Assembly: GCF_005871085.1 (NCBI RefSeq)
Contig: NZ_VAUP01000035.1
Coordinates: 186,001 to 250,000, forward strand
Direction: 5' to 3'
Source: Xanthobacter autotrophicus
GTDB taxonomy: Bacteria; Pseudomonadota; Alphaproteobacteria; Rhizobiales; Xanthobacteraceae
DNA: 64,000 bases
The translations under genes were made by a program, and so were the position numbers. Under the pieces are notes generated by a model. That model saw only the letters and a list, made by a program, of their open reading frames with translations, did no database searches and was not told the origin of the DNA. This document shows positions 1-23,724 of this stretch, one piece after another. How positions within the stretch are numbered: position 1 is the stretch's first letter; each line of letters begins with the position of its first letter.

Positions 1-369
1 GAGGGCAATGGCCGCATCGCTCAGCGGCACGCCGGCCGGCACGGGAAGATAAAGGTCGCGGCGCGCATCCATGCCCTGGAGCACCACCGGCCCGTCGATG
101 CCGAGATCGGACAGGGTGTAGGAGCGCGTCACCCGCGTGTCCGCCGCCCGCTCCTGAATGGCGGAGACGATCGGGTCCGCCGTCTGCGCCATGGCGGGAG
201 CCGCGCCGAGCAGGCCGGCCAAAAGACCGGGGAGAAGGCCGGCCGGCAGCAGCACCGCCGCGAGCCGGGCAGCGAGTGGGCGGGCCGCCCCTCGGCCAGC
301 CACGGCGCGGCCCAGCGCCGAAGGGACGGCGAGCGGGGGAGCTGGCGCGAAAGCGGAATGGTGTCTCAT
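1..369 (-). CDS. BcsB-like polysaccharide synthase periplasmic subunit (partial, N-terminus)
   Basis: The first 123 codons are visible and the gene runs off the left edge. The protein starts MRHHSAFAP and has a long hydrophobic stretch ending in an AMAQ-type signal cleavage site near residue 65. A mature region follows with YTLSDLGIDGPVVLQGMD and then LPVPAGVPLSDA. This pattern of a beta-rich segment opening with a leucine-glycine dyad and 'LxG' resembles the N-terminus of cellulose synthase BcsB-type periplasmic subunits. The start ATG lies 1 nt after the wecB stop, so the two are probably one operon. The family call rests on a short stretch and is tentative; signal peptide and export are clear. 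Confidence 0.55.
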   Translation of the reverse strand, partial: MRHHSAFAPAPPLAVPSALGRAVAGRGAARPLAARLAAVLLPAGLLPGLLAGLLGAAPAMAQTADPIVSAIQERAADTRVTRSYTLSDLGIDGPVVLQGMDARRDLYLPVPAGVPLSDAAIAL

Positions 370-370
370 G

Positions 371-1630
371 TCAGTCTCTCACGAGCATGGCGGCGAGGCC
401 GGCCGGACGCCGGGGCGCAGGCACAGCGGAGGGGAAGGCGGGGGCTACGGAAAGCGGTGAGAATTCCTCCACCGGCCGTCCGCACAGGCAGTCGAGGATG
501 CGGCGGCACGCCTGCCCGTCGCCATAGGGATTGATGCGGCCGCTATAGGCGACATAGGCGTCGGGATCATCCAGCAGCCGCGTGACGGCGGTGACGATGG
601 CGGCGCGGGCGGTGCCAACCAGCTCCACCGTGCCCGCCTCCACCGCCTCCGGCCGCTCGGTCACCTCGCGCATGACCAGCACCGGCTTGCCCAGCGCCGG
701 CGCCTCCTCCTGCACGCCACCGGAATCAGTGAGGACCAGGTGGGCGCGCTGCAGCAGCCGCTGGAACGGCAGGTAATCGAGGGGCGGCACCAGATGGATG
801 TTGGCCCGTCCGGCCAGTTCCTCGGTGACAGGGCCGCGCACATTGGGGTTGAGGTGCACCGGATAGACGATCTCCACGTCGGACCGCCCGGCGATCTCAG
901 CCAGCGCCGCGCAGATGGAGCGGAAGCCGTCGCCGAAATTCTCGCGGCGGTGGCCGGTGACGAGAAGGATGCGCTTAGCGGGATCAAGCGCCGGCAGCGC
1001 CCGGTCGAGGGCGGCGGCCAGCGCCGGGTCGTCATCGATGCGCGCCTGGGTCGCCTGAAGGGCGTCGATCACCGTGTTGCCGGTGACCACCACCCGGCCG
1101 GCGAGCCGCTCGGCGGCCAGGTTTTGCCCGGCGCCAGCGGTGGGCGCGAAAAGAAAGTCGGCGACCAGATCCACCACCCGGCGGTTCATCTCCTCCGGGA
1201 AGGGCTGGGTCAGATCATAGGTGCGCAGGCCCGCTTCCACATGGCCCACCGGGATGCGGCGATGGAAGGCGGCCAGCGCCGCCGCCATGGCGGTGGTGGT
1301 GTCGCCATGCACCAGCACGCGGTCGGGCTGAACCTGCGCCAGCACATGATCGAGGCCGGTGAGCGCACTGGCGGCAAGGCCGCTGAGCCCCTGATTGTGC
1401 GCCATGAGGGAAAGGTCGAATTCGGGGCGGATGTCGAACAGGCGCAGCACCGGGTCCAGCATTTCGCGGTGCTGGCCGGTGACGCAGACCATCGATGCGA
1501 TCCCCGGCGCCCCCGCGAGGGTGCGGACCAGCGGCGCCATCTTGATGGCCTCCGGCCGCGTGCCGAAGATCGACAGAATTTTCAAGCGCGTCCCCGGTGA
1601 TTCGATTTTTTGACGGTCGCACGAACCCAT
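371..1630 (-). CDS. wecB: UDP-N-acetylglucosamine 2-epimerase (non-hydrolysing)
   Basis: Cytosolic enzyme interconverting UDP-GlcNAc and UDP-ManNAc, the donor for ManNAc-containing surface glycans. The N-terminal signature FGTRPEAIKMAPL is at residues 22-34, followed by VTGQHREM, the VHGDTTTAMAAALAAFH segment, the HVEAGLRT loop, TGHRRENFG and a C-terminal TDSGGVQEEAPALGKP motif, all typical of the GT-B fold epimerase. Length (419 aa) is slightly long. The first 15 residues are not conserved-looking, and a TTG at 1585 just before KILSIFGTRPE is an alternative start. It is followed with a 1-nt gap by an exported BcsB-like gene, so its product probably feeds an exopolysaccharide rather than only peptidoglycan or LPS side reactions. 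Confidence 0.93.
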   Translation of the reverse strand: MGSCDRQKIESPGTRLKILSIFGTRPEAIKMAPLVRTLAGAPGIASMVCVTGQHREMLDPVLRLFDIRPEFDLSLMAHNQGLSGLAASALTGLDHVLAQVQPDRVLVHGDTTTAMAAALAAFHRRIPVGHVEAGLRTYDLTQPFPEEMNRRVVDLVADFLFAPTAGAGQNLAAERLAGRVVVTGNTVIDALQATQARIDDDPALAAALDRALPALDPAKRILLVTGHRRENFGDGFRSICAALAEIAGRSDVEIVYPVHLNPNVRGPVTEELAGRANIHLVPPLDYLPFQRLLQRAHLVLTDSGGVQEEAPALGKPVLVMREVTERPEAVEAGTVELVGTARAAIVTAVTRLLDDPDAYVAYSGRINPYGDGQACRRILDCLCGRPVEEFSPLSVAPAFPSAVPAPRRPAGLAAMLVRD

Positions 1631-5947: not shown

Positions 5948-7279
5948 TCAGCTCGCCAGACGGCGGTCGGCGATATAGGCGAGCAGCGCCTCTTCCGTCA
6001 TCGGACGTCCGAGGAAGAAGCCCTGCACCTCGTCGCAGGTATCGGCCCTGAGAATGGCCAGCTGGCTCTCGGTCTCCACGCCCTCCGCCACCACCTGCAA
6101 CCCCAGGGCGCGACCAAGGCCGAGGATCGCCTGCACGATGGCCAGGGCGTCCTTGGACTCATCGAGGTCGCCGACGAAGCGCCGGTCGATCTTCAGCGCA
6201 TCGAACGGGAAGGTCCGCAGGTAGCCCAGGGACGAATAGCCGGTGCCGAAGTCGTCCATGGACAGGCGCACGCCCAGGCCCTTCAGGCCAGCCAACACCT
6301 CCAGGGCCTTCTCGGCGTTCTCGATCAGCACGCTCTCGGTGATTTCGAGTTCAAGCCGGTGGGGTGCCACCCGGGTGGACTTGAGCACCGCGTCCACCGT
6401 GTCGACCAGCGCGTCGTTGCGGAACTGCACCACCGACACGTTGACGGAGACATTCAGCTCCGGCAGGCGGGAGATGGTGTCGCACGCCTTGCGCAGCACC
6501 CACTCGCCGATGGGAATGACAAGACCGCTCTTTTCCGCGAGGGGAACGAACGCATCGGGGGCGAGCAACCCCAGTTGGGGGTGGTCCCAGCGGATGAGCG
6601 CCTCGACCCCGAGCAGCTTCAGGGACCGCGCGTCGCAGCGCGGCTGGAACAGCAGGACGAACTCGTCGGCAACGATAGCTCGCCGCAGGTCGCTCTCCAG
6701 CGTCCGCCGACCGCTCATCTCGTCGTTCATGTCGTCGGCGAAATAGGAACAGATCCCAGGGCCTGCAGCCTTGGACTGGACCAGCGCCAGTTCGGCGCAA
6801 CGCACGAGGCCCTCGGCGTCCTCCGCATCGAGCGGAGCGAGGGAAACGCCCATGTTGGCCTGAGGATAGGCCGACGCACCGGAGGGCAGGCCCACGGGGG
6901 CGTTCAGCGCCAACAGCAGCCGCCGGGCCAGGCCGTCCACCGCCTTCGCGTCGCCGACGCCGGTGGCGACGACGACGAACCTCTCCGCATCCACCCGCGC
7001 CACCAAGTCGCGGTCGCGCACGCAACGGCGGATGCGTCGCGCCGTCTCGGCGAGGATGAGATCGCCCGCCGTCGGGCCGAACAACGTGTCGAAATGCGGG
7101 AAATTGTCCAGGTCGAGGCAAAAAACGGCAAGCATCCGCCGGGATTCCTGCGGTGAGCTGAGCGCACCCGCGAGGAATTCAGTCATCAAGAGGCGATTGG
7201 GCAGGCTGGTCACCGGGTCGTGCAGGGCAAGATACTCCGATTTCCAGGGCCCACGCGCTCCATCGTCGGCGTCGCTCAC
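5948..7279 (-). CDS. GGDEF-EAL protein with degenerate GGDEF and intact EAL
   Basis: Cytoplasmic 443-aa protein without membrane or sensory domain. The N-terminal half is a GGDEF domain (LALHDPVTSLPNRLLM; FCLDLDNF) in which the signature site reads VDAERF instead of GGDEF, so cyclase activity is unlikely. The C-terminal EAL domain keeps VEALIRW, the ITESVLIENAE helix, MDDFGTGYSSLGYL, LKIDRRFV and VAEGVET, the metal and catalytic residues of active c-di-GMP phosphodiesterases. The degenerate GGDEF may act as a GTP-sensing regulatory domain, as known in other EAL proteins. Start is GTG at 7279. Expected effect: lowering c-di-GMP, with exopolysaccharide or motility as possible outputs. Confidence 0.9.
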   Translation of the reverse strand: MSDADDGARGPWKSEYLALHDPVTSLPNRLLMTEFLAGALSSPQESRRMLAVFCLDLDNFPHFDTLFGPTAGDLILAETARRIRRCVRDRDLVARVDAERFVVVATGVGDAKAVDGLARRLLLALNAPVGLPSGASAYPQANMGVSLAPLDAEDAEGLVRCAELALVQSKAAGPGICSYFADDMNDEMSGRRTLESDLRRAIVADEFVLLFQPRCDARSLKLLGVEALIRWDHPQLGLLAPDAFVPLAEKSGLVIPIGEWVLRKACDTISRLPELNVSVNVSVVQFRNDALVDTVDAVLKSTRVAPHRLELEITESVLIENAEKALEVLAGLKGLGVRLSMDDFGTGYSSLGYLRTFPFDALKIDRRFVGDLDESKDALAIVQAILGLGRALGLQVVAEGVETESQLAILRADTCDEVQGFFLGRPMTEEALLAYIADRRLAS

Positions 7280-7610
7280 AAGTCACCCACTGCCGATCGT
7301 TGCGATGCCGGACGGCGACGGGGACGCTCCCGGAGGGGCGGCCCATTCAACGGTCGGCACATCCACTCGCCCCCGGCCCCGTCCCGATTGCCATCCTGAT
7401 CGAGGCCGCCGCCAACATGGTGATCCCCGCCCGGCCAAGTGGCAAGAGCCATATCGCCGTCAAGCCTGGTCCCGTCAAGGTCGTATTTTACCATAAGGCA
7501 CCCAGAGGGCGGGAGCGCAGGCCACCATCGCCGGAATGCCAGCGCCCATCGGCGGCCAGACTGGCATCGATTCCCACCCCGTGCCCTTATCCCGCAGGGG
7601 GGCACGTCAC
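7280..7610. other. Gene-free stretch between the GGDEF-EAL gene and pat
   Basis: 331 bp between two minus-strand genes. Short open frames here have no convincing start, no Shine-Dalgarno site and no recognisable product. Two TTGACG hexamers on the minus strand (about 7465-7485) could be part of a promoter for the GGDEF-EAL gene, but no good -10 partner is visible. Confidence 0.4.
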
Positions 7611-10313
7611 CTACAGGCTCGCCGTGGCGGTGGGCACGGGTGTGGCGGCCAGATCAAGGACCACCCGCATGACGGTCGGATCGTCGCTGCCGGCCGTGAC
7701 CTTGAAGCCCAGATCCTGGGCAAGGTGCAGCATGGGCCCGTTTTCCCGGAGCACGTCGCCGAACACCTTGTTCAGGCCACGCTTGCGCGCATGGGAGAGA
7801 ATCTCGTTCATGAGCTGAAAGCCGAGGCCTTTGCCCTTGAGGTCCGAGCGCACCATGATGGCGTATTCCGCCGCCTCGTTGTCGGGGTCGGCGATGATAC
7901 GCACGACGCCGCAGATATCCCCGTTTGGCTCCACCGCCACGAACGCCATCTCCCGGTCGTAGTCGATCTGGGACAGGCGGGCGGCCATCAAGTGGGGAAA
8001 ATCCTTCACCGACCCGAGGAACCGCATACGCACGTCCTGCGGGTCGGAGCGGTGGACGAGATCCACGAGGGAGGGCTCGTCCTCGGGCCGGATGGGCCGG
8101 AGCGCCACCTTGGATCCGTCGATCAGCGCCAGTTCGGAGACCTCGCTGGTGGGATAGGGCTTGATGGCGAAGCGTCCGGTGCCCTCCACCCGCGTCTCAT
8201 GCACCACGATGCGGGCGTCGAGGGCGATGACGCCGCTCTCGTCGGCAAGCAGCGGGTTGATGTCGAGTTCGGCGATCTGCGGCAGATCGGCGAGCAGCTC
8301 GGCGAGCTTCACCAGCGTGCCGGCCACCGCGCCCATGTCCGCCGGCGGATGGTCGCGGTAGCCGGCGAGCAGCTTGGCGACGCGGGTGCGCTCGATCATC
8401 TCGCGGGCGAGGACGCCGTTGAGGGGCGGCAGGGCCACGGCGCGGTCGCCGATCACCTCCACCGCCGTGCCGCCCTGGCCGAACAGCACCACCGGCCCGA
8501 AGGTCTTGTCATAGGCGATGCCGGCGATCAGCTCCTGAGCGTTGGGACGGCGCACCATGGCCTGCACCGTGAAGCCGGCAATGTGTGCCTCGGGCCGCTT
8601 CTCGGCCACCGAGGCGATGATGGCCCGGCAGGCATCCTCCACCGCAGCCGGGGTGCGCAGGTCGAGCCGGACGCCGCCCACGTCGGACTTGTGGGTCAGA
8701 TCGTGGGACAGCACCTTGACCACCACCGGCCAGCCGATCTCGGCTGCGCACCGGCCAGCATCCTCGGGCGTCGGGGCCACCCGCGTCTCCACCACCGGGA
8801 TATCGTAGGCGGAGAGCACCGCCTTCGCCTCCACTTCGGAGAGCGCGCTGCGGCCTTCGCCCAGCACCTTCTCCACCAGGGCCCGCGCCTTGGCCCGGTC
8901 GGGGTCCTCGAAGGTCCGCGCCGGCGGCGTCTCCATGAGCTGGGTCTGGTTGCGCTGGTAGGAGACCAGGTGACCGAAGGCGCGCACCGCCTCGTCGGGG
9001 GTCTCGTAGGTGGGAATGCGGCGGGCGGCGAAACGCCGCCGCGCGCCGGCGGCCGCGGTCTCGCCCAGCCAGCAGGTGAGCACCGGCGCGCGCATGCGCG
9101 TCTCCAGCACGGTGATCACCGCGTCGGCGGCCTGGCTGCTGTCCGCCACCGACGAGGGGCAATTGAGCACCAGCACCGCGTCCGCCCCCTTGTCGCCAAG
9201 GAGCGCCTTCAGGGCGGCTCCGTAGCGGGCGCCGTCGGCGTCATCCACGATGTCCACCGGATTGGCACGCGACCACACGCCGGGAATGATCTTGTCGAGC
9301 GCCTCCACCGTCTCCGGCTTCAGGATGCCCAGGCGGCCGGAAATGCCCTCCACCGCATCCACGGCCACCACGCCCGCGCCGCCGCCGTTGGTAAGGATGG
9401 CAAGCCGGTCGCCGGTGAGCTTGATGCCGGCCGCAAGGGTGGACACCGCCTCGAACAGCTCACGCAGTTCGTGCACGCGGAGCATGCCGGCACGGCGGAA
9501 GGCCGCGTCATAGACGAGATCACTGCCGGCCAGCACCCCGGTGTGGGACTGCGCCGCCCGGGCACCGGCAGCGCCCCGCCCGGCCTTGATGACGATGACT
9601 GGCTTGGAGCGCGCCGCGATGCGCCCCGCAGACATGAACTTGCGGGCGTCCTTCACATGCTCGACATAGAGCAGGATGGCGCGGGTGGTGTTGTCGAGGG
9701 CGAGATAGTCGAGCATGTCGCCGAAATCCACGTCCGCGCTCTCGCCCAGCGAAACGACGTGGGAGAAGCCGAAGCCCCGGACATGCGCCCAGTCCAGCAC
9801 CGCCGAGGTCATCGCCCCGGACTGGCTGACGAAGGCCACATCGCCCTTGGCCGGCATCAGGTGGGCGATGCTGGCATTGATATGCGGCCGGGTGGAGATG
9901 AAGCCGAGCCCGTTCGGCCCCAGCACGCGCAGCAGGAAGGGCCGCGCCGCGTCCAGCATCGCCTGGCGCTGCGCGGCGGTCTCGATCTGCTCACCCGGGC
10001 CGTAGCCGGCGCGCAGGACCACCGCAGCGCGGCACCCCTTTTCGCCCAGCTGGGCGATGGTGGTGGGCACGCTGTCCGGCGGGGCGGCCACCACGGCGAG
10101 ATCCACCGCAATGGGCAGGTCCGCCACCGAGGCGTAGTTGAGCGAGGAGCGGATGGCGCGCTCCTTCGGATTGACGGTGAGGATCGGCCCCTCGAACCCC
10201 GCCTCGAACAGGTTGCGCGCGATCACCGCGCCGATGCTGCCGGGTCGGTTGCTGGCGCCCACGAGGGCGATGGCGCGGGGGTGAAACAAGGCGTCGAGAT
10301 TGCGCGTGGTCAT
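7611..10313 (-). CDS. Pat-type protein lysine acetyltransferase (NDP-forming acyl-CoA synthetase fused to GNAT)
   Basis: A 900-aa protein starting MTTRNLDALFHPRAIALVGAS, with a CoA-binding Rossmann domain (1-130), succinyl-CoA-ligase-like domains (about 130-460, including LGPNGLGFIS and VSQSGAM), an ATP-grasp domain (about 480-700; PVVVKVLSHDLTHKSDVGGV and ELDINPLLAD), and a C-terminal GNAT domain (about 735-895; YAIMVRSDLKGKGLGFQLM is the acetyl-CoA loop). This is the architecture of Pat/YfiQ, which acetylates acyl-CoA synthetases and other proteins. The CoA-ligase part is usually non-catalytic in such enzymes. The in-frame ATG 84 nt upstream gives an Arg-rich tail unlike the family, so the 10313 start was chosen. 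Confidence 0.9.
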   Translation of the reverse strand: MTTRNLDALFHPRAIALVGASNRPGSIGAVIARNLFEAGFEGPILTVNPKERAIRSSLNYASVADLPIAVDLAVVAAPPDSVPTTIAQLGEKGCRAAVVLRAGYGPGEQIETAAQRQAMLDAARPFLLRVLGPNGLGFISTRPHINASIAHLMPAKGDVAFVSQSGAMTSAVLDWAHVRGFGFSHVVSLGESADVDFGDMLDYLALDNTTRAILLYVEHVKDARKFMSAGRIAARSKPVIVIKAGRGAAGARAAQSHTGVLAGSDLVYDAAFRRAGMLRVHELRELFEAVSTLAAGIKLTGDRLAILTNGGGAGVVAVDAVEGISGRLGILKPETVEALDKIIPGVWSRANPVDIVDDADGARYGAALKALLGDKGADAVLVLNCPSSVADSSQAADAVITVLETRMRAPVLTCWLGETAAAGARRRFAARRIPTYETPDEAVRAFGHLVSYQRNQTQLMETPPARTFEDPDRAKARALVEKVLGEGRSALSEVEAKAVLSAYDIPVVETRVAPTPEDAGRCAAEIGWPVVVKVLSHDLTHKSDVGGVRLDLRTPAAVEDACRAIIASVAEKRPEAHIAGFTVQAMVRRPNAQELIAGIAYDKTFGPVVLFGQGGTAVEVIGDRAVALPPLNGVLAREMIERTRVAKLLAGYRDHPPADMGAVAGTLVKLAELLADLPQIAELDINPLLADESGVIALDARIVVHETRVEGTGRFAIKPYPTSEVSELALIDGSKVALRPIRPEDEPSLVDLVHRSDPQDVRMRFLGSVKDFPHLMAARLSQIDYDREMAFVAVEPNGDICGVVRIIADPDNEAAEYAIMVRSDLKGKGLGFQLMNEILSHARKRGLNKVFGDVLRENGPMLHLAQDLGFKVTAGSDDPTVMRVVLDLAATPVPTATASL

Positions 10314-10530
10314 GAACGGCCTCGCTGCTGGTGCCCGGCGGCTCTCAAGTGCGGCCGACCGAGCCAAATAGCCGTGCCAAGTAACGCACGGGAACACCGC
10401 AAGAGCACCTCCGGATCATACCGCAATGCAATATGATCGGCAAAATGGTCTCTTTTTTCAGGTTTGAAGCCGGATCGACCGATCAGGTTGGCTTAACCGG
10501 ATCAGGTCCGGCTCCGGAGCAGGCGACGGA

Positions 10531-10570
10531 GAGCGGGGCGACGGGGAGCGGGGCGACGGGGAGCGGGGCG
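10531..10570. repeat. 15-bp tandem repeat (2.7 copies)
   Basis: GAGCGGGGCGACGGG is repeated at 10531 and 10546 with a partial third copy from 10561. It lies just past the stop of the orphan receiver gene, outside any coding sequence. Confidence 0.85.
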
Positions 10571-10577
10571 AGCCGGA

Positions 10578-10967
10578 TCAGCACAGGCCCGAGCGCGCGA
10601 AACTGTCGCGCACGGCCTCGCTAAGCTGGTTGCCGAGGAGGGGTTTCTCGATGATGGCCACGCCCTGGGCGGTGGCGCGGCTGCGCACGTGCAGGGCGGG
10701 ATTGCTGGTGATGAGGAAGGCCGGGAGACGCACGTCGCGCCGGTCCAGTTCGCGCAGCAGGTCGAGACCATTGAGGCCGGGAAGATTGTAGTCCACGATC
10801 ATGCATCCACCGCGCGAAAATTCGGCGGCCAGCACGTCTTCCGAGCGCGCATAGGTCCGCACGCTGAAGCCATCGACCTCAAATGCGAACTTCAGCGAGC
10901 TGCAAACGGCCGGATCGTCGTCCACCACATGAACGACGAAGCCGGGCGTCTCGTTGGACACGATCAT
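10578..10967 (-). CDS. Single-domain response regulator (orphan receiver)
   Basis: 129-aa receiver domain and nothing else. Acidic pair in VVDDDP (15-19), phospho-acceptor Asp59 in MIVDYNLPGLNG, the switch threonine in FLITSN and the conserved lysine in IIEKPL are all present, so it should be phosphorylated. It has no output domain. It resembles the receivers of FixJ-like regulators and lies 167 nt downstream of fixJ on the same strand, so phosphate sharing with FixL or another kinase is plausible. The upstream ATG at 11030 gives an unrelated Arg-rich extension; MIVSNETPG at 10967 fits the fold better. Confidence 0.85.
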   Translation of the reverse strand: MIVSNETPGFVVHVVDDDPAVCSSLKFAFEVDGFSVRTYARSEDVLAAEFSRGGCMIVDYNLPGLNGLDLLRELDRRDVRLPAFLITSNPALHVRSRATAQGVAIIEKPLLGNQLSEAVRDSFARSGLC

Positions 10968-11776: not shown

Positions 11777-13286
11777 GAAGCGCCGCCTCCTCGCCCACGG
11801 CGCGCAGGGTGAAGCGGAACACCGCACCGCCCTGCGGATTGGGCTCGGCCCAGATGCGGCCGCCGTGGCTCTCGATGATGGTGCGGGAGATGGACAGCCC
11901 CACCCCCATGCCGTGCTGCTTGGTGGTGACAAAGGGCGTGAACAATTGCGGCGCGAACTCGGCCGATATGCCGTGGCCGGTATCCGAGACGCTGATCATC
12001 ACCATGTCGTCCTCCGCCGCCTCGGTCTTCACCAGCAGCTGGCGCCGCGGCGCCTCCATCATTGCCTCCAGGGCGTTGCGCATCAAGTTCAGCAATACCT
12101 GCTGCACCTGCACCTTGTCGGCAAGCACGAGGTCGCACCCGGGATCATAAAGAAAACGCACCTGGATACCATGCTCCTTGGCGCCGACCAAGGCGAGGGC
12201 GCTCGCCTCCTCCACCAGCTTGGACAGGCTTTCCACCCGCCGCTCGCTCTCCCCTCGGGAGACGAAGTCGCGCAGCCGCCGGATGATCTGCCCGGCGCGC
12301 AGCGCCTGCTCCCCGGCTTTCTCCAGCGCACCCTGCAGCATCTCCACCTTGACGGTGCCGGCATCCAGCAAGCGGCGCGAGCCCTTGATGTAATTGGCGA
12401 TGGCCGACAGCGGCTGGTTCAGCTCGTGGGCGAGGGTGGAGGCCATCTCGCCCATGGCGGTGAGGCGGGAGATGTGGACCAGCTCGGCCTGGAGCTCCTG
12501 GAGGCGGGCCTCGGTCTCCTGCCGCTCGGTCAGGTCGCGGATGAAACCGGTGAAGAAGCGCTCGGAGGTGGAGCGCATCTCGCCGACCGCCAGTTCCATG
12601 GGGAAGGTGGAGCCGTCCTTGCGCTCGCCCACCACCACCCGGCCGACACCGATAATGCGCCGCTCGCCGGTGGTGAGATAGCGCACAAGATAGCCGTCGT
12701 GGGCGCCCCGGTGGGGCGCGGGCATGAGAATCGAGACGTTCTGGCCCACTGCCTCGGCCGCCGTGTAGCCGAACAGGCGCTCGGCCGCGCTGGAGAAGGA
12801 GCGCATGATGCCACGCTCGTCGATCACCACCATGGCGTCGGGCACGGTGTCGAGGATCGAGGAGAGGTGCGCCTCGCGGGCCAGCAGGTCGCGGTTGCGG
12901 GCGGCGGCATCCAGTCGTGTGCGGCGCAGCCGCTCGCCAAGCACCGCGATGCCGAGCGCCACCGCGATAAACAGGGCCAGCGTTGCCGGATCGAAGGCCC
13001 CCCCGAGGCTTGTCGCGCCGCTGGCGAGGGCCAGCACCGCCCCTCCCGCGATGGCAACCGCCAGGGCGGTGCCGCCGGCCACCAGCCCGCGCCCGCTCAC
13101 CACGATCACGCCGGCGAGCTGGAGCATCAGCCCCTCGGCCCGGAACGGCGGGAAGCCAACGACAAGCCCCAGGACGAGGACGAGGAGCGCCACCGCGCCC
13201 CCAACCAGGGCGTCGGACCAGGCGGCACGCCCCGCCAGGCGCCTTGCGGCCATATCGGTCACCACGCTGTCCATCCCGTTCGCCAC
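11769..13286 (-). CDS. fixL: Oxygen sensor histidine kinase FixL
   Basis: 505 aa. An N-terminal membrane part (about 25-118) with roughly four hydrophobic segments precedes a heme-PAS domain (140-255). The PAS carries the FixL heme pocket [15 protein letters not shown], the proximal heme His196 in [28 protein letters not shown] and [10 protein letters not shown]. The kinase core follows: H-box LAHELNQP with His287, N-box [11 protein letters not shown]-boxes SDTGHGIS and GMGVGLSIS. Oxygen binding to the heme should shut the kinase off. It forms an operon with fixJ and diverges from fixK. Confidence 0.95.
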
Positions 13287-13313
13287 ACCATCCCCGGGGC
13301 CGGCTTTCGGCCT

Positions 13314-13346
13314 CCGTAAAACTACTTAAGGACACCGACTTAAGTG
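13314..13346. promoter_or_regulatory. Candidate FixJ binding region between fixL and fixK
   Basis: On the minus strand the sequence TTAAGTAGTTTTACG appears, one mismatch in eight from the FixJ class I core GTAAGTAG known from the Sinorhizobium fixK promoter, and the following T-run also matches. ACTTAAG occurs twice, 14 bp apart (13324 and 13338), the second as the palindrome ACTTAAGT. It lies about 70-100 bp before the fixK ATG, a sensible activator distance. This is a match by eye only. Confidence 0.5.
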
Positions 13347-13359
13347 TTCGATCCGAATT

Positions 13360-13373
13360 TTGCGATGCGTCAA
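13360..13373. promoter_or_regulatory. Candidate FixK/FNR box upstream of fixK
   Basis: TTGCGATGCGTCAA fits the FixK/FNR-type pattern TTG-N8-CAA with half sites TTGCG and GTCAA. It sits 42 bp before the fixK ATG, downstream of the candidate FixJ site, where binding would overlap the core promoter; negative autoregulation is the natural reading. Confidence 0.55.
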
Positions 13374-13415
13374 TGCCGGTTATCCCTTTCTGCAACGTGA
13401 TGGAAGGGTAAACCG

Positions 13416-14126
13416 ATGCCGAGCCCCGCTGCAGCGATCGCCCAGAAGGCCTACGCTCATCCCATGACCGCTCCGCGCTGGGGCGACGAGGCCGAGACCC
13501 GCTCCCCCATCGACGTGGTGGCCCGCCTTGGCATCGTGGCCTCTTATGCCCGCAATGCCGAGATCTTCGGTGAAGATCAGGCCGCCGATCATCTCTACAT
13601 CGTTCTGTCCGGAGCGGTGCGCATCTGCAAGCTGCTCGGCGACGGCCGGCGCCAGATCGAGACCTTCTGCCTCGCCGGCGACGTGTTCGGCTGGGAGATG
13701 GAGCCCCGGCACCGCTTCTCCGCCGAGGCCGTGAGCGAGTGCAAGGTGGTGCGCATCAAGCGGTCCATCCTGTTTTCCCGTGCTGCCGACGACGCCGAGC
13801 TGGCTCATGCCCTTTGGGCGCTGACCGCTTCCGAGTTGGGCCGGGCTCAGTCCCATCTTCTGGTGCTCGGTCGCAAGACTGCCCAGGAGCGGGTGGCCAC
13901 CTTCCTGCTCGACATGGCGGCGCGCGCCGGCTCCGGCCAGGGCACCAACGGCATTGAGGTGACGCTGCCCATGTCGCGGCAGGATATCGCCGACTTCCTC
14001 GGCCTCACCATCGAGACCGTGTCGCGGACCCTGACCCATCTCGAGGAGATTTCGGCCATCGCCCTCCCCTCATCCCGCCGCGTGGTGCTGCGCGACGGAG
14101 CGGCGCTGCGGCGCCTGAATTCCTGA
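13416..14126 (+). CDS. fixK: FixK-type CRP/FNR transcription regulator
   Basis: 236 aa: cyclic-nucleotide-like beta-roll (about 30-135), dimer helix, and a C-terminal winged HTH (MSRQDIADFLGLTIETVSRTLTHLEE). The recognition helix has the FNR-type E-x2-S-R pattern that reads TTGA half sites. The N-terminal Cys cluster of FNR is missing, so it is FixK-like, controlled by its expression level instead of directly by oxygen. It diverges from fixL-fixJ, and TTG-N8-CAA boxes lie before its own gene and before hemN. A GGAAGGG Shine-Dalgarno site precedes the ATG. Confidence 0.92.
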   Translation: MPSPAAAIAQKAYAHPMTAPRWGDEAETRSPIDVVARLGIVASYARNAEIFGEDQAADHLYIVLSGAVRICKLLGDGRRQIETFCLAGDVFGWEMEPRHRFSAEAVSECKVVRIKRSILFSRAADDAELAHALWALTASELGRAQSHLLVLGRKTAQERVATFLLDMAARAGSGQGTNGIEVTLPMSRQDIADFLGLTIETVSRTLTHLEEISAIALPSSRRVVLRDGAALRRLNS

Positions 14127-14180
14127 TCCGTCTTTCCCCCCGGCGTGCCGCACTCTTCATCTGCGGCGCACCTCCCCTTT

Positions 14181-14217
14181 GGCACGTGCTCCCGGGCGCG
14201 TGCCTTTTTCTTTTTTT
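14181..14217 (+). terminator. Rho-independent terminator of fixK
   Basis: Stem GGCACGTGC / GCGCGTGCC (9 bp with one G-T pair), loop TCCCGG, followed by T5-C-T7. It is the clearest intrinsic terminator in the window and lies 55 nt after the fixK stop. Confidence 0.9.
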
Positions 14218-14234
14218 GGGGAGGAATCTCCGAG

Positions 14235-14259
14235 AAATAAAGCAGGCCGCCGTGCGGCC
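14235..14259 (-). terminator. Terminator hairpin of hemN
   Basis: On the minus strand GGCCGC-ACG-GCGGCC is followed by TGCTTTATTTC, 17 nt past the hemN stop. Together with the fixK terminator it separates the convergent pair. Confidence 0.6.
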
Positions 14260-14275
14260 CGCTCCAAATCAACCT

Positions 14276-15679
14276 TCAGACTGCCGCGGCGTGGCGCTTC
14301 TGCTCCGGGGCCGCGGCGCGGCTTGCCACAAGGCGCGTGTCGAACACCGCGCAAACCACGCGGGTGAAGGGCCGGCTCGCCTCCGGCACCTCCACCACCG
14401 CGCCGTGGCGAAAGGCGAGGCCATCGGCGATCAATGGCTCCAGTGCGTGGATCTCGTCGGCGAAGAAGCCGCGCGGAAAGCCGTGCTGCATGCAGGCTTC
14501 ATCCAGATCCACCGACAGGTCGCACATGAGCCGCTCGATGACGTGGCGGCGCAGCCGGTCCTCGTCAGTCAGGGCGATGCCCCGCGCGATGGGCAGGGTG
14601 CCGGCTTCTACCGCCTTGTGCCAAGCCGGCGTGGCGGGCAGGTTCTGCACATAGCCCTGCGGCAGCGCGCCGATGGCCGACGCTCCGAAGCCGATCAGCA
14701 CCGGGGCGTCGTCGGTGGTGTAGCCCTGGAAATTGCGCTTCAGCGTCCCCGCCGCCGCCCGCTCCGCCATGGCGTCCGAGGCGCGGGCGAAATGGTCGAG
14801 CCCCACCGGCACATAGCCATGGCGGGCGAGCACGTCCGCCACCAGTTCCGCCTGCGCCAGCCGCGCGCCGGCGTCTGGTAGCGCGTCTTCCGGGATCAGG
14901 GCCTGGTGTTTCTTCATCCACGGCACATGGGCATAGCCGAACACGGCGATACGGTCCGGATCAAGGCCGAGCGCCGCCTCCACCGTGCGGCGGACGGAGG
15001 CCTCGTCCTGATGCGGCAGGCCGTACATGAGGTCGAGGTTGAGGGCGGTGATGCCGGCGGCGCGCAAGGCATCCGCCACCGCCTGCGTCTCCTCGCACGA
15101 CTGGTGGCGGCCGATGGCCTGCTGCACGGCGGGATCGAAATCCTGCACGCCGAGGCTGGCGCGGTTGAAGCCCTCGCGGGCGAGCGTCGCCACCTTGGCC
15201 GCGTCCATCACCCGCGGGTCGATCTCGATGGCGATCTCGGCGCCCGGGGCAAACTCGAAGGTCTCACGCAACGCGCCCAAGATGGCGGCGAAGTCCTCGT
15301 CCGCCAGCATGGTGGGCGTGCCACCACCGAAATGCAGGTGCGACAGCTTCAGCCGGCCCGGCAGGTGGCGGGCGACGAGACCAATCTCCTCCACGAGGCG
15401 CTCCGCATAAGCCTTCACCGGCGTGCGGCTGCGGGCCACCGCCGTCTGGCAGCCGCAATAGAGGCACAGCTCGGCGCAGAACGGCACGTGCACATAGGCC
15501 GACACGCGGGCATCCCCCGGCACGGCCGCGAGCCACGAGGCATAGGTCGCGGCATCGACGGCGGGGGAGAAATGGGGCGCGGTGGGGTAGCTCGTATAGC
15601 GCGGCACCGGCTGCCCGTAGCGGGCAAGGAGGGTTGCGGCATCAAGCTTGGGGGCGGGGCAGAAGGAAGCTTGGGTCAT
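14276..15679 (-). CDS. hemN: Oxygen-independent coproporphyrinogen III oxidase
   Basis: Radical-SAM enzyme decarboxylating coproporphyrinogen III to protoporphyrinogen IX under low oxygen. It starts MTQASFCPAP and has the HemN N-terminal PRYTSYPTAPHF. The [4Fe-4S] cluster motif is Cys68-x3-Cys72-x2-Cys75 in VPFCAELCLYCGC. HFGGGTPTML, GVQDFDPAVQQAIGR and LMYGLPHQ follow, and the C-terminal HemN domain has LKRNFQGYTT. Length 467 aa is standard. An ATG at 15691 is an alternative start. A FixK-type box lies 35 nt upstream of the chosen start, in keeping with induction under microaerobic conditions, and fixK itself is next door. Confidence 0.95.
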   Translation of the reverse strand: MTQASFCPAPKLDAATLLARYGQPVPRYTSYPTAPHFSPAVDAATYASWLAAVPGDARVSAYVHVPFCAELCLYCGCQTAVARSRTPVKAYAERLVEEIGLVARHLPGRLKLSHLHFGGGTPTMLADEDFAAILGALRETFEFAPGAEIAIEIDPRVMDAAKVATLAREGFNRASLGVQDFDPAVQQAIGRHQSCEETQAVADALRAAGITALNLDLMYGLPHQDEASVRRTVEAALGLDPDRIAVFGYAHVPWMKKHQALIPEDALPDAGARLAQAELVADVLARHGYVPVGLDHFARASDAMAERAAAGTLKRNFQGYTTDDAPVLIGFGASAIGALPQGYVQNLPATPAWHKAVEAGTLPIARGIALTDEDRLRRHVIERLMCDLSVDLDEACMQHGFPRGFFADEIHALEPLIADGLAFRHGAVVEVPEASRPFTRVVCAVFDTRLVASRAAAPEQKRHAAAV

Positions 15680-15714
15680 GGCCGCGACCATGAGGCGCCG
15701 ACCCTTGCGGCGCC

Positions 15715-15728
15715 TTGATGTGGCGCAA
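15715..15728. promoter_or_regulatory. FixK/FNR box (anaerobox) upstream of hemN
   Basis: TTGATGTGGCGCAA: the left half is the full consensus TTGAT and the right half CGCAA keeps CAA, giving TTG-N8-CAA. It lies 35 nt upstream of the hemN ATG. FixK control of hemN is established in rhizobia; the site itself is read here by eye. Confidence 0.7.
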
Positions 15729-15809
15729 GGGGCCAGGCTCTGAGGCCGCCCCCTTGAATGCCCCTTTGTCGCACCCGGCTCCGGCCATTGCCGGATCCGG
15801 CTTTGACAT

Positions 15810-15837
15810 CCACAACTCGGGAACACCCGAGTTGTGG
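15810..15837. terminator. Perfect 12-bp stem hairpin after the nfrA-like gene
   Basis: CCACAACTCGGG, loop AACA, CCCGAGTTGTGG. It begins 43 nt after the nfrA-like stop and lies upstream of the hemN promoter. No T-run follows on either strand, so it may stabilise the 3' end of the long transcript instead of acting as a classical terminator. Confidence 0.6.
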
Positions 15838-15880
15838 CGCGTACCCACTCGGCATCGGTCAAAGACCGAGGCCGATGGCA

Positions 15881-19533: not shown

Positions 19534-20538
19534 TTACTTCCCGATCGCCGCGCGCATCCGCTCGCGCCAGGTCTCGCCGCTCATGAGCGAGGGCGCATCC
19601 CACTGGTCCGCGGCCTGCGGACCGCTATGGAACGGTCCCTCGTTGAACTGCCACACCAGCACCTGCGGCGGCGCCTTGGCGAAGTCAGGCGTGCCGACGG
19701 CCTGGAGGAAGGTGACCCATGGCCCCACGTTGCCGGGGTTCCAGGTGAGGGAGACCGGCCGGTCGAGCCCATTGGAGAGCTTCTGCGGGAAGCCGAGATA
19801 GGGCTGCACGAAGCTGTTGCCCACCACATGGACGGGCGCCGGCCCGCTATCGAGCAGGGAGGCCTTGGCGGCGGGCGGGGTGCGCACGGTGTAGAGGTCG
19901 GGGCCCACCTGCTTCTGCTGGTCGGGCGGCAGGAAGCGCTCGGCAAGATCCCCCAGATGGCGCTGGGTGACCCATTCCCCCAGCTTGTCGCCGCCCGGCG
20001 CGCCGGCGAGCTTCGACACCTTGGTCTTGATGAAGGCGGCCACGGCATCCGCCGCCGCCTCGGACGACCAGGCCGTCCAGTGGTAGTCGGCCCGGTAGAA
20101 GCTGGTCTGGCGGCCGGTCTCCACCGATTTGAGCGCCGGGCGCAGGTCCAGCGTATCAATGCCCGCCTTCTTCAGCTCGTCGAGGATGAAGTCGTACTGC
20201 CCCGCCACGTCCGCCGACAGGCTGGTGCCGTCGGGCAGGCGCGCCGCGTAGAAGCGGGCCTTCAGCGGCACCACCAAAGTGATGAGGGTGATGCCCCGCG
20301 CGGCGAGTGACGCCTTGGCGTCCTTGATCAGCCCCACATTGGCGGTGATGCCGGCCCGGTCCAGAACCGTCAGGCTCTCCCAGCCGGGAAAAAGCCAGCC
20401 GTCCTTGCCGATGATGAGGGTGGTGCCGCCGGACGGGCCCTGCGCCGCCGCCGGAGCCGCCGCGCCCGCGACGGCGAGCGCCGAGGCCAGGGCTGCCCCG
20501 GCCAGCAGCCGGCGGCGGGTGAGGGCGCGAAGCGTCAT
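19534..20538 (-). CDS. AlgX/AlgJ-like SGNH O-acetyltransferase (Tat-type signal)
   Basis: 334 aa from the ATG at 20538. The N-terminus has a twin-arginine-like signal (LTRRRLLAGAALASALAVAG, cut near AAAQ). The mature part has IIGKDGWLFPGWESL (the start typical of AlgX/AlgJ SGNH domains), the catalytic Asp-His pair in RADYHWTAWSS, and HVVGNSFVQPY holding the presumed serine nucleophile. The family transfers acetyl groups to exported polysaccharide in the periplasm. Its ATG overlaps the stop of the preceding algJ-like gene (ATGA), so the two are coupled. No C-terminal carbohydrate-binding module is present, unlike Pseudomonas AlgX. Confidence 0.82.
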   Translation of the reverse strand: MTLRALTRRRLLAGAALASALAVAGAAAPAAAQGPSGGTTLIIGKDGWLFPGWESLTVLDRAGITANVGLIKDAKASLAARGITLITLVVPLKARFYAARLPDGTSLSADVAGQYDFILDELKKAGIDTLDLRPALKSVETGRQTSFYRADYHWTAWSSEAAADAVAAFIKTKVSKLAGAPGGDKLGEWVTQRHLGDLAERFLPPDQQKQVGPDLYTVRTPPAAKASLLDSGPAPVHVVGNSFVQPYLGFPQKLSNGLDRPVSLTWNPGNVGPWVTFLQAVGTPDFAKAPPQVLVWQFNEGPFHSGPQAADQWDAPSLMSGETWRERMRAAIGK

Positions 20539-21617
20539 GTCGGATCTCCCAGAAAGCGGCGTTCGGTCTCCGTCAGCGGGCGGGTAAGCGCACGCATGGG
20601 AAACTCCCACACGATGAGCCGTGTCTGCGCGAGACTTTCGGGCTCATTCATCAGAAATTCCAGAAGCTGGCCGGCAAAGCCGCTGCCGTCAGCGCTCTTC
20701 TGCGCCACCTCATAGCCGGACGCCGCCTGCAGATAATCCAGGAAACCGGAATTGCGCGAGAAAGAGGACCCCGCCAACACCACCGCGGGCGCGGGCACAT
20801 CGTCGAGCAGGCCGCCGCTGCGGGCGATGGTGACGGACACGTCCGGCACCTCGTCGGGCTCGGGACCCGACCAGGGCCAGGAGCGCTCCAGCCCGGCAAG
20901 GCGCATCAGGTCGCCCACACGCGCATGCGGCGCGCTCTCCTTCAACGTCACCTTCTGGGTCCCGGCGCCGATCTTCCGCGCCACATGCTCGGCCACGCGC
21001 GCGGCGGCGAGGCGCGCGCCCGAAGGGCTCCAGTGGGTGTCGGTGCGCAGGAAGCCGTCCGCGTCGGGAAAGCCCGGCGCGATCTCCACCTGGTCGAGGC
21101 CCAGCCCACGGCTCCCCTGCCACCACGCGGCGGAACGCTTGGCCGCCAGATCCGCCACCTGAAGACCACAGAGCCGGTCTGCCGCCAGCAGGGCCTTGTC
21201 GGGCACCGGCAGCACCACAAGGGCGATGTTCCGCGCGACGAGATGATCTCGGATCTTCGCGGCGAGCCGGATGCGCGCGCCCACATGGGCCTCCCGCTCG
21301 CGCGGCTCGACGATCTCGTCGGCATAGAACAGCCAGCCGGGACACCCGGCGCGCACCAGCGGCCCGGCATCGCCGAAAAGACGGTAGGCAAGGCCCGAGG
21401 CGATATCACCAAGCCCCGTCAGCTTAGGCAAAGCGGCCACCACCTGCTTGTCCAGCACCGCAGTGAAGCGACCTTCCAGGATGTCCGCCGGGCTGGCCAC
21501 TGCCGCAAGCGCCTCCCGGCTTTCGGGGCCGGGGAGCCGCGCCGCGACGAAGCCGAGGCCGGCTAGCAACAGCGCCAGGAAGGCCAGGGTGGCGAGGGTG
21601 CGGGCGAGGGTCGTCAT
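20535..21617 (-). CDS. AlgJ-like SGNH O-acetyltransferase (membrane-anchored)
   Basis: 360 aa with one N-terminal membrane anchor (LATLAFLALLLAGLGFVAA). The AlgJ-type SGNH domain has PGWLFYADEIVEP near the start, IALVVLPVPDKALLAADRL, the Asp-His catalytic pair in LRTDTHWSPSGARLAA, and VVLAGSSFSRNSGF with the candidate nucleophile serine. It lies 6 nt downstream of algI and overlaps the next SGNH gene by 4 nt. It would take acetyl groups from AlgI and pass or add them to a nascent surface polysaccharide. Confidence 0.85.
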   Translation of the reverse strand: MTTLARTLATLAFLALLLAGLGFVAARLPGPESREALAAVASPADILEGRFTAVLDKQVVAALPKLTGLGDIASGLAYRLFGDAGPLVRAGCPGWLFYADEIVEPREREAHVGARIRLAAKIRDHLVARNIALVVLPVPDKALLAADRLCGLQVADLAAKRSAAWWQGSRGLGLDQVEIAPGFPDADGFLRTDTHWSPSGARLAAARVAEHVARKIGAGTQKVTLKESAPHARVGDLMRLAGLERSWPWSGPEPDEVPDVSVTIARSGGLLDDVPAPAVVLAGSSFSRNSGFLDYLQAASGYEVAQKSADGSGFAGQLLEFLMNEPESLAQTRLIVWEFPMRALTRPLTETERRFLGDPT

Positions 21618-21623: not shown

Positions 21624-23009
21624 TCAGAACTGGAAATAGAGGAAGGGCACGACGATCCGCCCCTGCAGCACGAACACCGCGAACAGGAACAAAGGCAGCG
21701 CCGTCCACGCCCGCAGCGCGTGGCCGGGATTGGGCGCGGAAGGGTCAATGCGCATCAGCTTCGGCAGATAGATGAGGCCGATGCCGAGGGCGAGGGTGAC
21801 CAGTTCCAGCGGCCGGAGCGCCGCCCCCATGGCGGGCGAAAGCGAAAGCCCGTGGGCGCCGGCGAGGCCGGAGAAGATGCGCCCCGCCTCGTCCCAGCTC
21901 GCGGCGCGGAACAGCGCCCAGCCGACCATGACGAAGGCGAGGGTAAGCACATGGCCCGGCAGCGCACCGGTGCCGGGCAGGCGCGCGGCCTTCCACACCC
22001 GCCCCACCATCAGGCCGAAGCCGTGCCACAGGCCCCAGATGAGGAAGGTCCAGCTCGCCCCATGCCACAGGCCGCCAAGGCCCATGGTGACCAGCAGGTT
22101 CATGGAGACGCGGCCGGTGGAGCCCCGGTTGCCGCCCAGCGGAATGTAGAGATAGTCCCGCAGCCAGCTGGACAGGGAGATGTGCCAGCGCCGCCAGAAA
22201 TCAGAAAGCGAGGTGGCAAGATAGGGATTGTCGAAATTCTCCGGGAATTTCAGCCCCACCATCAGCCCGAGGCCGATGGCCATGGCGCTGTAGCCGGAAA
22301 AATCGAAATAGAGCTGCAGCGTATAGCCCGCCACCGCCAGCAGCACGTCCGCCGTGGTCGGCTCGGCTAGGGCGTAGCCCGCGTCCACCATGGGGGCGAG
22401 CGTATCGGCGATGAGCACCTTCTGGGCGAAGCCGAGCATGAAGCGCTCCACCGCGAACATGAACTCGGCGCGGTGGAAGGTGCGCGCCTTCAACCGCTGC
22501 GCCACCCATTCGTAGCGCACCACGGGACCGGCCACGAGGTGGCCGAACATGGACTGGTAGGTGGCGTAGTTCACGAACGACGGCTCGGCCGCGACCGTGC
22601 CGCGGAACACGTCGGTGGAATAGGAGATGGCGCCGAACACGAAGAAGCTGAGGCCGATGGGCAACAGCACATCCTGCCAGCCCCACACCGAGGCCCCCAG
22701 CGCCCCCGCCGAATGCACGAACATGTTGGCGTATTTGAACCAGACGAGCGACGCCAGCGGCCACGCGATCCCCACCACCAGCGCCCGCCGCCGTCCCGCG
22801 CCGTCCGCCCGGGCGATCCACAGGCCCGTGGCCCAGGACCACACGGCGATGGAGACGATGAGCGGCAGGAAATCCGCCCGCCACCAAGCATAGAACAGCC
22901 AGGAGAAGGCGAGGATGGCAAGGTTGCGCGCCGCCCCCGGCGTCAGCGCGTAGACGATGAGGAACACCGGCAGGAACAGGAACAGGAAGCTGTCGGAGGC
23001 GAAGACCAT
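21624..23009 (-). CDS. AlgI-like MBOAT O-acetyltransferase
   Basis: 461-aa polytopic inner-membrane protein of the MBOAT family, about 10-12 hydrophobic segments. It starts MVFASDSFLFLFLPVF, the typical AlgI N-terminus. The middle has PIGLSFFVFGAISYSTDVFRG and QLYFDFSGYSAMAIGLGLM. The catalytic region has FWRRWHISLSSWLRDYLYIPLGG and the essential histidine in GGLWHGASWTFLIWGLWHG. It moves acetyl groups from cytoplasmic acetyl-CoA to periplasmic acceptors. Third partner of the AlgF/AlgJ/AlgX set here. Confidence 0.93.
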   Translation of the reverse strand: MVFASDSFLFLFLPVFLIVYALTPGAARNLAILAFSWLFYAWWRADFLPLIVSIAVWSWATGLWIARADGAGRRRALVVGIAWPLASLVWFKYANMFVHSAGALGASVWGWQDVLLPIGLSFFVFGAISYSTDVFRGTVAAEPSFVNYATYQSMFGHLVAGPVVRYEWVAQRLKARTFHRAEFMFAVERFMLGFAQKVLIADTLAPMVDAGYALAEPTTADVLLAVAGYTLQLYFDFSGYSAMAIGLGLMVGLKFPENFDNPYLATSLSDFWRRWHISLSSWLRDYLYIPLGGNRGSTGRVSMNLLVTMGLGGLWHGASWTFLIWGLWHGFGLMVGRVWKAARLPGTGALPGHVLTLAFVMVGWALFRAASWDEAGRIFSGLAGAHGLSLSPAMGAALRPLELVTLALGIGLIYLPKLMRIDPSAPNPGHALRAWTALPLFLFAVFVLQGRIVVPFLYFQF

Positions 23010-23022
23010 GGACCCCGCCCGA

Positions 23023-23724
23023 CTAGTTGGCGGCGCCGCGATAGGTCTCGGTCTCGTCGCGTTGGCCGGTGAGCACCGGGCCGGAGGCGCCCGGCAGCAG
23101 GAACAGGCTGTAATGGTCCCCGGCCTTCAGCGGCGGCAGGGTCAGGGGGCCGGAGGCCGCCGCCCCGCAGGTGGCCGATAGGATCGCCTCGATGGGATTG
23201 ATGGCGCGCTGGCGGGTGGCGTTGGGCGCCACCGCCTCGAACACGGTGGGGCCGCCATCGGCGACAGTCACGGCGCCGTCGCAGCCGGGCACGAGATTGT
23301 AGAAGCGCAGCTGGGCCTTCAGGTCGTTGCGGCCCTCGGTGGAATCGGCGATGACCACCGCCGGGCCGCCCGCCGGCACCACCACGGTGGAGAAGGCGTC
23401 CGCCGCCGGCACGATCTCGCCGGCCACCGGCCGGCCGTCGATGCTGAGGGCGAGCGGGGTACCGCCTTTCACCACGCGGTAGATGGTGGCGGTGTCGCCC
23501 TGCGCCATCGGTGCCGCCGGACCTGATCCGAAGGCGATGGGCAGGCCGCTGAGGGAAAGGTCGATCACGCGCACATAGGCCGAGCCGGCCGGAGGCTTGG
23601 GCGCATAGAGCCGGGTCAGTTCCTGCGCCTGTGCGCCAAAGCTGGCCATGGCGAGGGCCAAGGCGCCGAGGCCGGCGGCGATCCGGCTTCCGGCGGCACG
23701 CGTGACACGGATGGAAACAGGCAT
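23023..23724 (-). CDS. AlgF-like periplasmic O-acetylation protein
   Basis: 233 aa with a signal peptide cut near AQAQE (residue 35). The mature N-terminus LTRLYAPKPPAGSAYVRVIDLS matches the start of alginate O-acetylation protein AlgF (LY-PxxPxGSAFVRV), and the rest is beta-rich with two cysteines. First gene of the algF-algI-algJ-algX-like operon; 13 nt separate it from algI. AlgF links AlgJ and AlgX in Pseudomonas. No alginate polymerase genes are visible, so the substrate is another glycan. Confidence 0.75.
   Translation of the reverse strand: MPVSIRVTRAAGSRIAAGLGALALAMASFGAQAQELTRLYAPKPPAGSAYVRVIDLSLSGLPIAFGSGPAAPMAQGDTATIYRVVKGGTPLALSIDGRPVAGEIVPAADAFSTVVVPAGGPAVVIADSTEGRNDLKAQLRFYNLVPGCDGAVTVADGGPTVFEAVAPNATRQRAINPIEAILSATCGAAASGPLTLPPLKAGDHYSLFLLPGASGPVLTGQRDETETYRGAAN

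Follow-up and report, generated by a model that had tools for sequence, protein, structure and literature searches.

A stretch of 64,000 nucleotides (nt) of Xanthobacter autotrophicus DNA, referred to here as the window (C32:186001-250000 of a 5.0-Mb assembly), carries genes with which this Xanthobacter-group soil bacterium probably has a complete machine for making, acetylating, and exporting a polymer related to the N4 glycan of Escherichia coli. The genes lie in two blocks on the minus strand, and we consider it likely that these are parts of a single Nfr-type (N4 glycan) system for synthase-dependent exopolysaccharide production, fitted with an O-acylation module. In gene order, the first block comprises wecB, a BcsB-like gene, an NfrB-like gene, and a DUF4434/YbcH-like gene, with the BcsB-like gene crossing the left edge of the window and the last two lying wholly to its left. 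The second, 14.25 kb to the right, comprises algF, algI, two SGNH genes, and nfrA. An earlier note on this DNA had read the two blocks as one split system, and the observations that bear on that reading are the gene content, the conserved catalytic residues, and the co-occurrence and synteny of the genes in relatives.

The synthase block opens with WecB, which scored 461 bits on TIGR00236 (cut-off, 210) and is the sole Epimerase_2 (PF02350) match in the genome; it would supply UDP-N-acetylmannosamine (UDP-ManNAc). A gap of 1 nt separates wecB from the BcsB-like gene, which starts at 369, and the pairing of wecB with an exported BcsB-like gene described in the earlier note was borne out, for the second gene by its modeled fold. 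The BcsB family PF03170 matched this protein with partial coverage at 32.7 bits (cut-off, 21), but gave it only 19.9 bits, below the cut-off, in the whole-genome scan; the same family matched 39 of 42 homologues (E up to 0.001). Since PDB sequence searches with the BcsB-like and YbcH-like proteins gave no credible relatives, either with alignments (one chance match, E 0.45) or with single sequences (one match, E 0.1), both proteins were compared by fold. The model of the Xanthobacter oligotrophicus BcsB-like homologue had a mean predicted local distance difference test score (pLDDT) of 77.6, with residues 1 to 59 and two loops below 50, and its top 22 Foldseek matches were all BcsB or cellulose-synthase chains (E 1e-21 to 3e-14). 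It aligned with BcsB across 527 residues (Z 14.3, 5.5 A), and the product is thus predicted to have a BcsB fold with a C-terminal helix.

The NfrB-like glycosyltransferase, which the earlier note had expected to the left of position 1, is present there beside bcsB and wecB and scored 1,137 bits on NF012033 (cut-off, 537). It carries c-di-GMP_motif and MshEN domains as well as a family 2 glycosyltransferase (GT2) domain with the DxD, TED, and QxxRW motifs, and its closest named genomes (98%) are X. oligotrophicus and X. autotrophicus. Residues D116, D175, D178, E272, D273, Q334, R337, and W338 were kept in 99 of 100 aligned rows, the remaining row being gapped, in an alignment which, like those of the SGNH and AlgI proteins below, includes near-identical genus rows and some genomes twice. 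The MshEN domain has two Leu-Gly pairs, with Leu kept in 94 and 93 and Gly in 99 and 100 of the 100 rows.

At the far end of the second block, the 1,157-residue protein is, by its profile match, an NfrA. Its residues 982 to 1153 matched all 173 positions of NfrA_C (PF13283) with 257 bits against a cut-off of 25, the profile search by which the earlier assignment was to be judged, and it also has tetratricopeptide repeat (TPR) families and an N terminus that by eye resembles a signal sequence. It shares 23% identity with E. coli NfrA in the C-terminal part (E 3e-10), and the E. coli phage-receptor equivalog NF007302 gave it only 39 bits (cut-off, 1223).

The genes upstream of nfrA had been described as algF-, algI-, algJ-, and algX-like, which holds for the first three and for nfrA itself; the supposed AlgX is a second AlgJ-like protein. 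AlgF was recognized by PF11182 (57 bits; cut-off, 34.4). The AlgI-like membrane-bound O-acyltransferase (MBOAT) matched DltB structures with 104 bits, kept His316 and Tyr458 in 44 of 44 rows, and ends in FLYFQF, in which Tyr458 fits the acyl-shuttle motif FxYxxF; this motif was present in all 43 MBOATs from other nfr loci (one gene counted twice). In passages of PMC12148441, the FxYxxF tyrosine of PatA is acetylated from acetyl-CoA and the group is handed to an SGNH partner, a scheme that its authors extend to alginate and cellulose systems. The AlgJ-like SGNH protein scored 65 bits against AlgJ (4o8v) and kept the triad Asp193, His195, and Ser285 in 44 of 44 rows; the second kept Asp175, His177, and Ser266 (numbering of the 358-residue open reading frame [ORF]) in 42 of 42, the AlgJ triad residues being as given in the consulted parts of PMC4148444. 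The second SGNH protein fits AlgJ (4o8v, 68 bits) better than AlgX (39 bits). AlgX has a C-terminal carbohydrate-binding module, for which the second protein has no room, because in the ORF 19534-20610 the ALGX domain finishes at residue 324 of 358. Its start is likely the ATG at 20538, in an ATGA overlap with the upstream stop, rather than the GTG at 20610. Judged by these matches, the module consists of AlgF, AlgI, and a pair of SGNH proteins that are both AlgJ-like, without a true AlgX. Neither a ligase nor a carrier gene occurs in it, in keeping with an acyl-CoA donor. Across the other 397 genomes of the phylum sample described below, even the closest AlgI matches did not exceed 52% identity. 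Two more pairs of an MBOAT and an ALGX-domain protein occur in the same genome (G000:C1:390745-392949 and G000:C7:88124-90339) and presumably acylate other polymers.

We then asked how the genes are distributed among 61 related genomes and in a phylum sample of 398 genomes. NfrA_C was found in 16 of the 61 relatives, and NfrB exceeded its cut-off in the identical 16; AlgF was present in 14 of these, in G004 with a score slightly short of the cut-off, and did not occur in the remaining 45, so that the co-occurrence proposed for a split system does hold among relatives. Counted by genus, AlgF occurred in three of the five genera with NfrA and in none of the 43 without it. Within the genus, 12 of 14 genomes have the system, the other two (G005 and G010, 88 and 93% complete) lacking NfrA, NfrB, and AlgF. 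The Fisher values of 5e-12 (relatives) and 7e-4 (phylum) ignore kinship, 12 of the 16 positive relatives being of one genus. The alg genes run straight into nfrA in all 12 genus genomes with the system, and the synthase genes do not adjoin them: the blocks share a contig, 14 to about 57 kb apart, in seven genomes and lie on different contigs in five (in G006, wecB is beyond the contig end). In one sister genus (G026), wecB, bcsB, nfrB, algF, algI, algJ, algX, and nfrA are contiguous; in another (G014), the run from bcsB to nfrA is contiguous, with no wecB within the 20 kb read and with nfrA broken by a contig end, its C-terminal part being on another contig. Since two sister genera have the genes in one cluster, the two blocks are read as a split of one system, and the simplest reading of the gene orders is that the split arose within this genus. 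Two further relatives, G019 and G031, have nfrA-wecB-bcsB-nfrB contiguous, with no alg genes detected.

Several observations weigh against a single acylating system of this kind. Two of the five NfrA-bearing genera among the relatives are without AlgF. In the phylum sample, AlgF occurred in 22 genomes (21 above the cut-off) and NfrA_C in 15, with both in only 5 of 398, and the two were adjacent in only three (G000, G253, and G264); in the other two co-bearing genomes, they were far apart or on different contigs, and AlgF scored 282 bits, like a full alginate-type AlgF. No acylation module was detected in 58 of the 80 nfrB loci surveyed below, 5 of the 58 being Xanthobacter loci with the module elsewhere and several contigs being short. 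NfrB reached 637 bits on the E. coli NfrB equivalog model, short of the cut-off of 1170, and DUF4434 gave no match, or a score below the cut-off, in the YbcH-like protein of the window genome itself. Finally, when the 250 bp upstream of wecB and algF were compared (11 and 12 genus sequences), no dyad reached a frequency of 80% in each set, and three FNR/FixK-like patterns sought in the same regions were not found either.

The ManNAc unit, the acetyl group, and every biochemical step of the mechanism that we propose are taken from E. coli genetics and from the protein families. WecB would produce UDP-ManNAc, which NfrB, as a processive GT2 synthase gated by cyclic di-GMP (c-di-GMP) via MshEN, would polymerize across the inner membrane, and the BcsB-like protein would guide the chain through the periplasm. 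AlgI would load acetyl from acetyl-CoA onto its C-terminal tyrosine, and the AlgJ-like SGNH proteins, helped by AlgF, would transfer it to chain hydroxyls. NfrA, with its TPR and barrel parts, would export the polymer, which the YbcH/DUF4434-like protein may trim or clear as a periplasmic glycoside hydrolase. For E. coli, the consulted parts of two 2021 mBio papers (PMC8669472 and PMC8669469) report that NfrB binds c-di-GMP and that N4 infection needs WecB and not the other enterobacterial common antigen (ECA) genes tested, and they propose a ManNAc-containing polymer as the product. The position of wecB at the head of the nfrB block, as the sole Epimerase_2 match of the genome, agrees with a rule given in section 11 of PMC8669469.

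The same machine could work with another chemistry, if the NfrB product were not a plain ManNAc homopolymer (a mixed GlcNAc/ManNAc chain, for example) or the group were not acetyl, and this we regard as unlikely though worth keeping in view. The E. coli composition was itself deduced from genetics, according to the parts consulted of PMC8669472 and PMC8669469, and because these polymer genes are accompanied in other nfr clusters by genes for a DltA-like ligase and a carrier protein, different clusters may well use different acyl groups. This reading is opposed by the single 2-epimerase match at the head of the synthase block, a window module without ligase or carrier that fits an acyl-CoA donor, and a window AlgI that groups with the AlgI proteins of ligase-free loci and not with the Dlt-type group.

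It is improbable that the AlgF-AlgI-AlgJ-AlgJ' block serves some other polymer, such as cellulose, peptidoglycan, or a capsule, and sits beside nfrA by chance. The spacing of the blocks where they share a contig would suit such a role, as would the presence of another two AlgI-like MBOATs and another two ALGX-domain proteins at other places in the genome, but AlgF is confined among the 61 relatives to genomes with NfrA and NfrB, and the block adjoins nfrA in each of the 12 genus genomes that have it, whereas in two sister genera it is flanked by nfrB and nfrA. The genome also gave no match to the AlgE-type exporter family PF13372, a family that was matched in just 1 of 14 control genomes. Nor did a second BcsB turn up, in a scan that scored the known BcsB below the cut-off and so could let a divergent copy escape. 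Alginate as the product was rejected for want of an AlgE-type exporter match, and cellulose as the acylation target for want of a second BcsB match, BcsA not having been searched for. Still less credible, to the point of being hardly worth entertaining, are two independent pathways (wecB-bcsB-nfrB and algFIJ-nfrA) that merely resemble one system. The separate blocks and the lack of a shared promoter element would agree with it; the shared presence and absence in relatives, the single cluster in G026, the contiguous nfrA-wecB-bcsB-nfrB of G019 and G031, and the occurrence of nfrA near nfrB in 73 of 80 surveyed loci all argue for one system.

The last gene of the synthase block encodes a 292-residue protein with 23% identity to E. 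coli YbcH across 95 residues (E 1e-4); the equivalog NF007404 gave it only 24.5 bits (cut-off, 344), and DUF4434 was matched by 43 of 45 aligned homologues (E up to 0.1). Modeling gave the X. oligotrophicus homologue a TIM barrel fold (pLDDT 92.5). Among solved structures, this model comes closest to the putative alpha-L-fucosidase 4h41 (Z 20.4, 247 residues, 3.1 A), followed at Z about 13 to 14 by PgaB hydrolase domains (13.7 for one) and chitinase-type enzymes; its Foldseek top ten also hold TIM barrels that are not hydrolases, endonuclease IV for one. All 45 aligned homologues have Glu150 and Glu238, and at the equivalent positions Glu stands in every one of 74 rows, E. coli YbcH among them (some genomes twice). 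Counted on the model, Glu150 lies at the end of strand 4 (144 to 151) and Glu238 at the end of strand 7 (233 to 238). Enzymes of the GH-A clan are TIM barrels with the catalytic acids at the ends of strands 4 and 7. Because of its TIM barrel and the two invariant Glu residues at these positions, we predict the protein to be a glycoside hydrolase. We found no literature linking YbcH or DUF4434 to this activity, and the consulted parts of PMC8669469 treat E. coli YbcH as a periplasmic putative scaffold with a partial, nonessential role.

To see how the genes are assorted elsewhere, we surveyed the best 80 of at least 565 confirmed NfrB loci, ranked by likeness to the query alignment and so biased to relatives of the window, counting same-strand neighbors up to 10 kb on either side. 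A BcsB-like gene was found in 78 of the 80, wecB in 74, and a DUF4434-like gene in 68; nfrA was near nfrB as stated above. An Alg-type module as in the window was present in six (L060, L062, L073, L082, L101, and L102) and an Alg/Dlt hybrid in 11 (L064, L066, L067, L068, L076, L077, L078, L080, L081, L122, and L131), with two more hybrids, L141 and L142, from the phylum sample. Five Pseudomonas loci (L109, L118, L126, L130, and L133:14673-16336) carry AlgF and one SGNH (AlgX/AlgJ-like) gene with no MBOAT detected nearby; their acyl donor would need to be supplied by another part of the genome. The acylation module is thus optional among nfrB loci and seems exchangeable, a lead drawn from gene neighborhoods.

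The hybrid cassettes combine AlgF and two SGNH proteins with a DltB-like MBOAT, a short carrier protein, and a DltA-like AMP-forming ligase. That of L080 (L080:7951-14145) has AlgF, two ALGX proteins, an MBOAT, a 77-residue phosphopantetheine-attachment protein, and an AMP-binding enzyme; another lies at L068:15751-21493. The hybrid MBOAT keeps the FLYFQF ending. For the three hybrid ligases scanned, the best NCBIfam model was DltA, always below the cut-off (328 and 338 bits for TIGR01734, cut-off 560; 404 bits for NF003417, cut-off 476), and for the two carriers scanned it was DltC, at 26 and 28 bits (cut-off, 68). Aminoacylation of a Gram-negative exopolysaccharide is a possible role of the hybrid. 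In an unrooted tree of 35 of the 44 AlgI sequences, with eight genus members and one duplicate omitted, the 12 Alg-type nfr proteins formed one group (100/99) and the 13 hybrid-type proteins another (100/100), the remaining 10 rows belonging to AlgF loci where the 16 to 19 kb read showed no nfr gene. That the two types form separate groups suggests that acylation modules were recruited at least twice. We put forward, as a tentative proposal that may well prove wrong, that WecB, the BcsB-like protein, NfrB, NfrA, and YbcH form a widespread c-di-GMP-gated chassis that has gained exchangeable O-acylation cassettes at least twice, one Alg-type and one Alg/Dlt-type adding a ligase-activated acid such as an amino acid, with the YbcH/DUF4434 protein as its dedicated periplasmic glycoside hydrolase. 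Beyond the papers cited, no literature match listed was relevant by title to nfr joined with dlt genes or to Alg joined with Dlt.

Features of the two blocks (window positions unless prefixed with C32)
Feature	Position	Strand	Basis
DUF4434/ybcH-like gene, 292 aa	C32:180881-181759, left of window	minus	homology, fold model
nfrB, 709 aa	C32:181914-184043, left of window	minus	NF012033
BcsB-like gene, 5' part (768 aa in full)	1..369, whole = C32:184063-186369	minus	profile and predicted fold
wecB, non-hydrolysing UDP-GlcNAc 2-epimerase	371..1630	minus	TIGR00236, 461 bits
nfrA-like gene, TPR repeats and C-terminal NfrA_C outer-membrane domain, 1157 aa	15881..19354	minus	PF13283, 257 bits
second SGNH O-acyltransferase-like gene (AlgJ/AlgX-like)	19534..20538	minus	PF16822, 251 bits
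AlgJ-like SGNH gene	20535..21617	minus	PF16822, 257 bits
AlgI-like MBOAT	21624..23009	minus	PF03062, 101 bits
AlgF-like gene, heading the acylation block	23023..23724	minus	PF11182, 57 bits (cut-off, 34.4)

Beyond the DUF4434/YbcH-like gene, on the opposite strand, is the AICAR transformylase/IMP cyclohydrolase gene (purH). Between the blocks (window 5948-15862) lie a GGDEF-EAL gene, in which the GGDEF motif seems degenerate on inspection by eye, as well as a PAS histidine kinase and two response regulators recognized by profile match. Three more genes there were assigned by eye, one long and acetyltransferase/CoA-ligase-like, one for an FNR-type regulator, and one hemN-like. The kinase, one regulator, the FNR-type gene, and the hemN-like gene adjoin nfrA in 10 of 11 genus relatives, the eleventh ending at a contig edge.

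The earlier note had held that no described system joins NfrA-type export with AlgFIJX acetylation, which is wrong. For Achromobacter xylosoxidans, Sellner et al. (2021, PMC8669472, in the part consulted) describe a cluster of nfrA, nfrB, and wecB that also includes homologues of BcsB and of periplasmic O-acetyltransferases. For Simplicispira suum, Junkermeier and Hengge (2021, PMC8669469, likewise) describe an nfr cluster with a gene cluster inside it that is akin to the alginate acetyltransferase complex. Since these papers already pair nfr with acetyltransferase genes, we rejected a categorically new system and regard the window as a further example, not a new kind. Among the literature matches listed, none on AlgI or AlgX named NfrA, and no title concerned the chemistry of a Xanthobacter exopolysaccharide. 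Clusters that combine wecB and a BcsB-like gene with an acylation module and a predicted hydrolase offer points of attack that are absent in E. coli: a single 2-epimerase to delete, a hydrolase that could free oligosaccharides for chemical study, and an acyl group to seek. If cassettes do exchange on one polymer, they would offer a route to altered surface charge and phage recognition.

Of the known systems, the E. coli N4 glycan receptor (NGR), NfrA-NfrB-WecB-YbcH, is matched in its GT2 synthase with MshEN, its TPR/barrel exporter, WecB, and a YbcH/DUF4434-like protein. Unlike the window system, the nfrBA-ybcH stretch of E. coli lacks an acylation module and any gene annotated as BcsB-like; since 78 of the 80 surveyed loci have a BcsB-like gene, the E. 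coli cluster may be a reduced form. The E. coli wecB sits in the ECA operon (PMC8669472, in the part consulted), whereas here wecB heads the synthase block of a two-block system. Acetylated cellulose systems (Wss) combine a GT2 synthase, a BcsB partner, and MBOAT/SGNH acetylation genes, and cellulose synthesis (bcs) uses BcsA with a PilZ domain; the window synthase differs in being an NfrB with MshEN and its exporter in being an NfrA. With the Pseudomonas AlgF-AlgI-AlgJ-AlgX module, the window shares AlgF, an MBOAT that ends in FxYxxF, and SGNH proteins that carry Asp-x-His and Ser, but it has no AlgX-type carbohydrate-binding module, serves other polymer genes, and has its AlgI in a separate group. 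The nfr clusters of Simplicispira and Achromobacter, likened here from their text descriptions, hold the same combination of nfr and O-acetyltransferase genes, in Achromobacter also with wecB and a BcsB homologue; there the genes are clustered or integrated, whereas in the window they are split in two blocks, and in an alphaproteobacterium.

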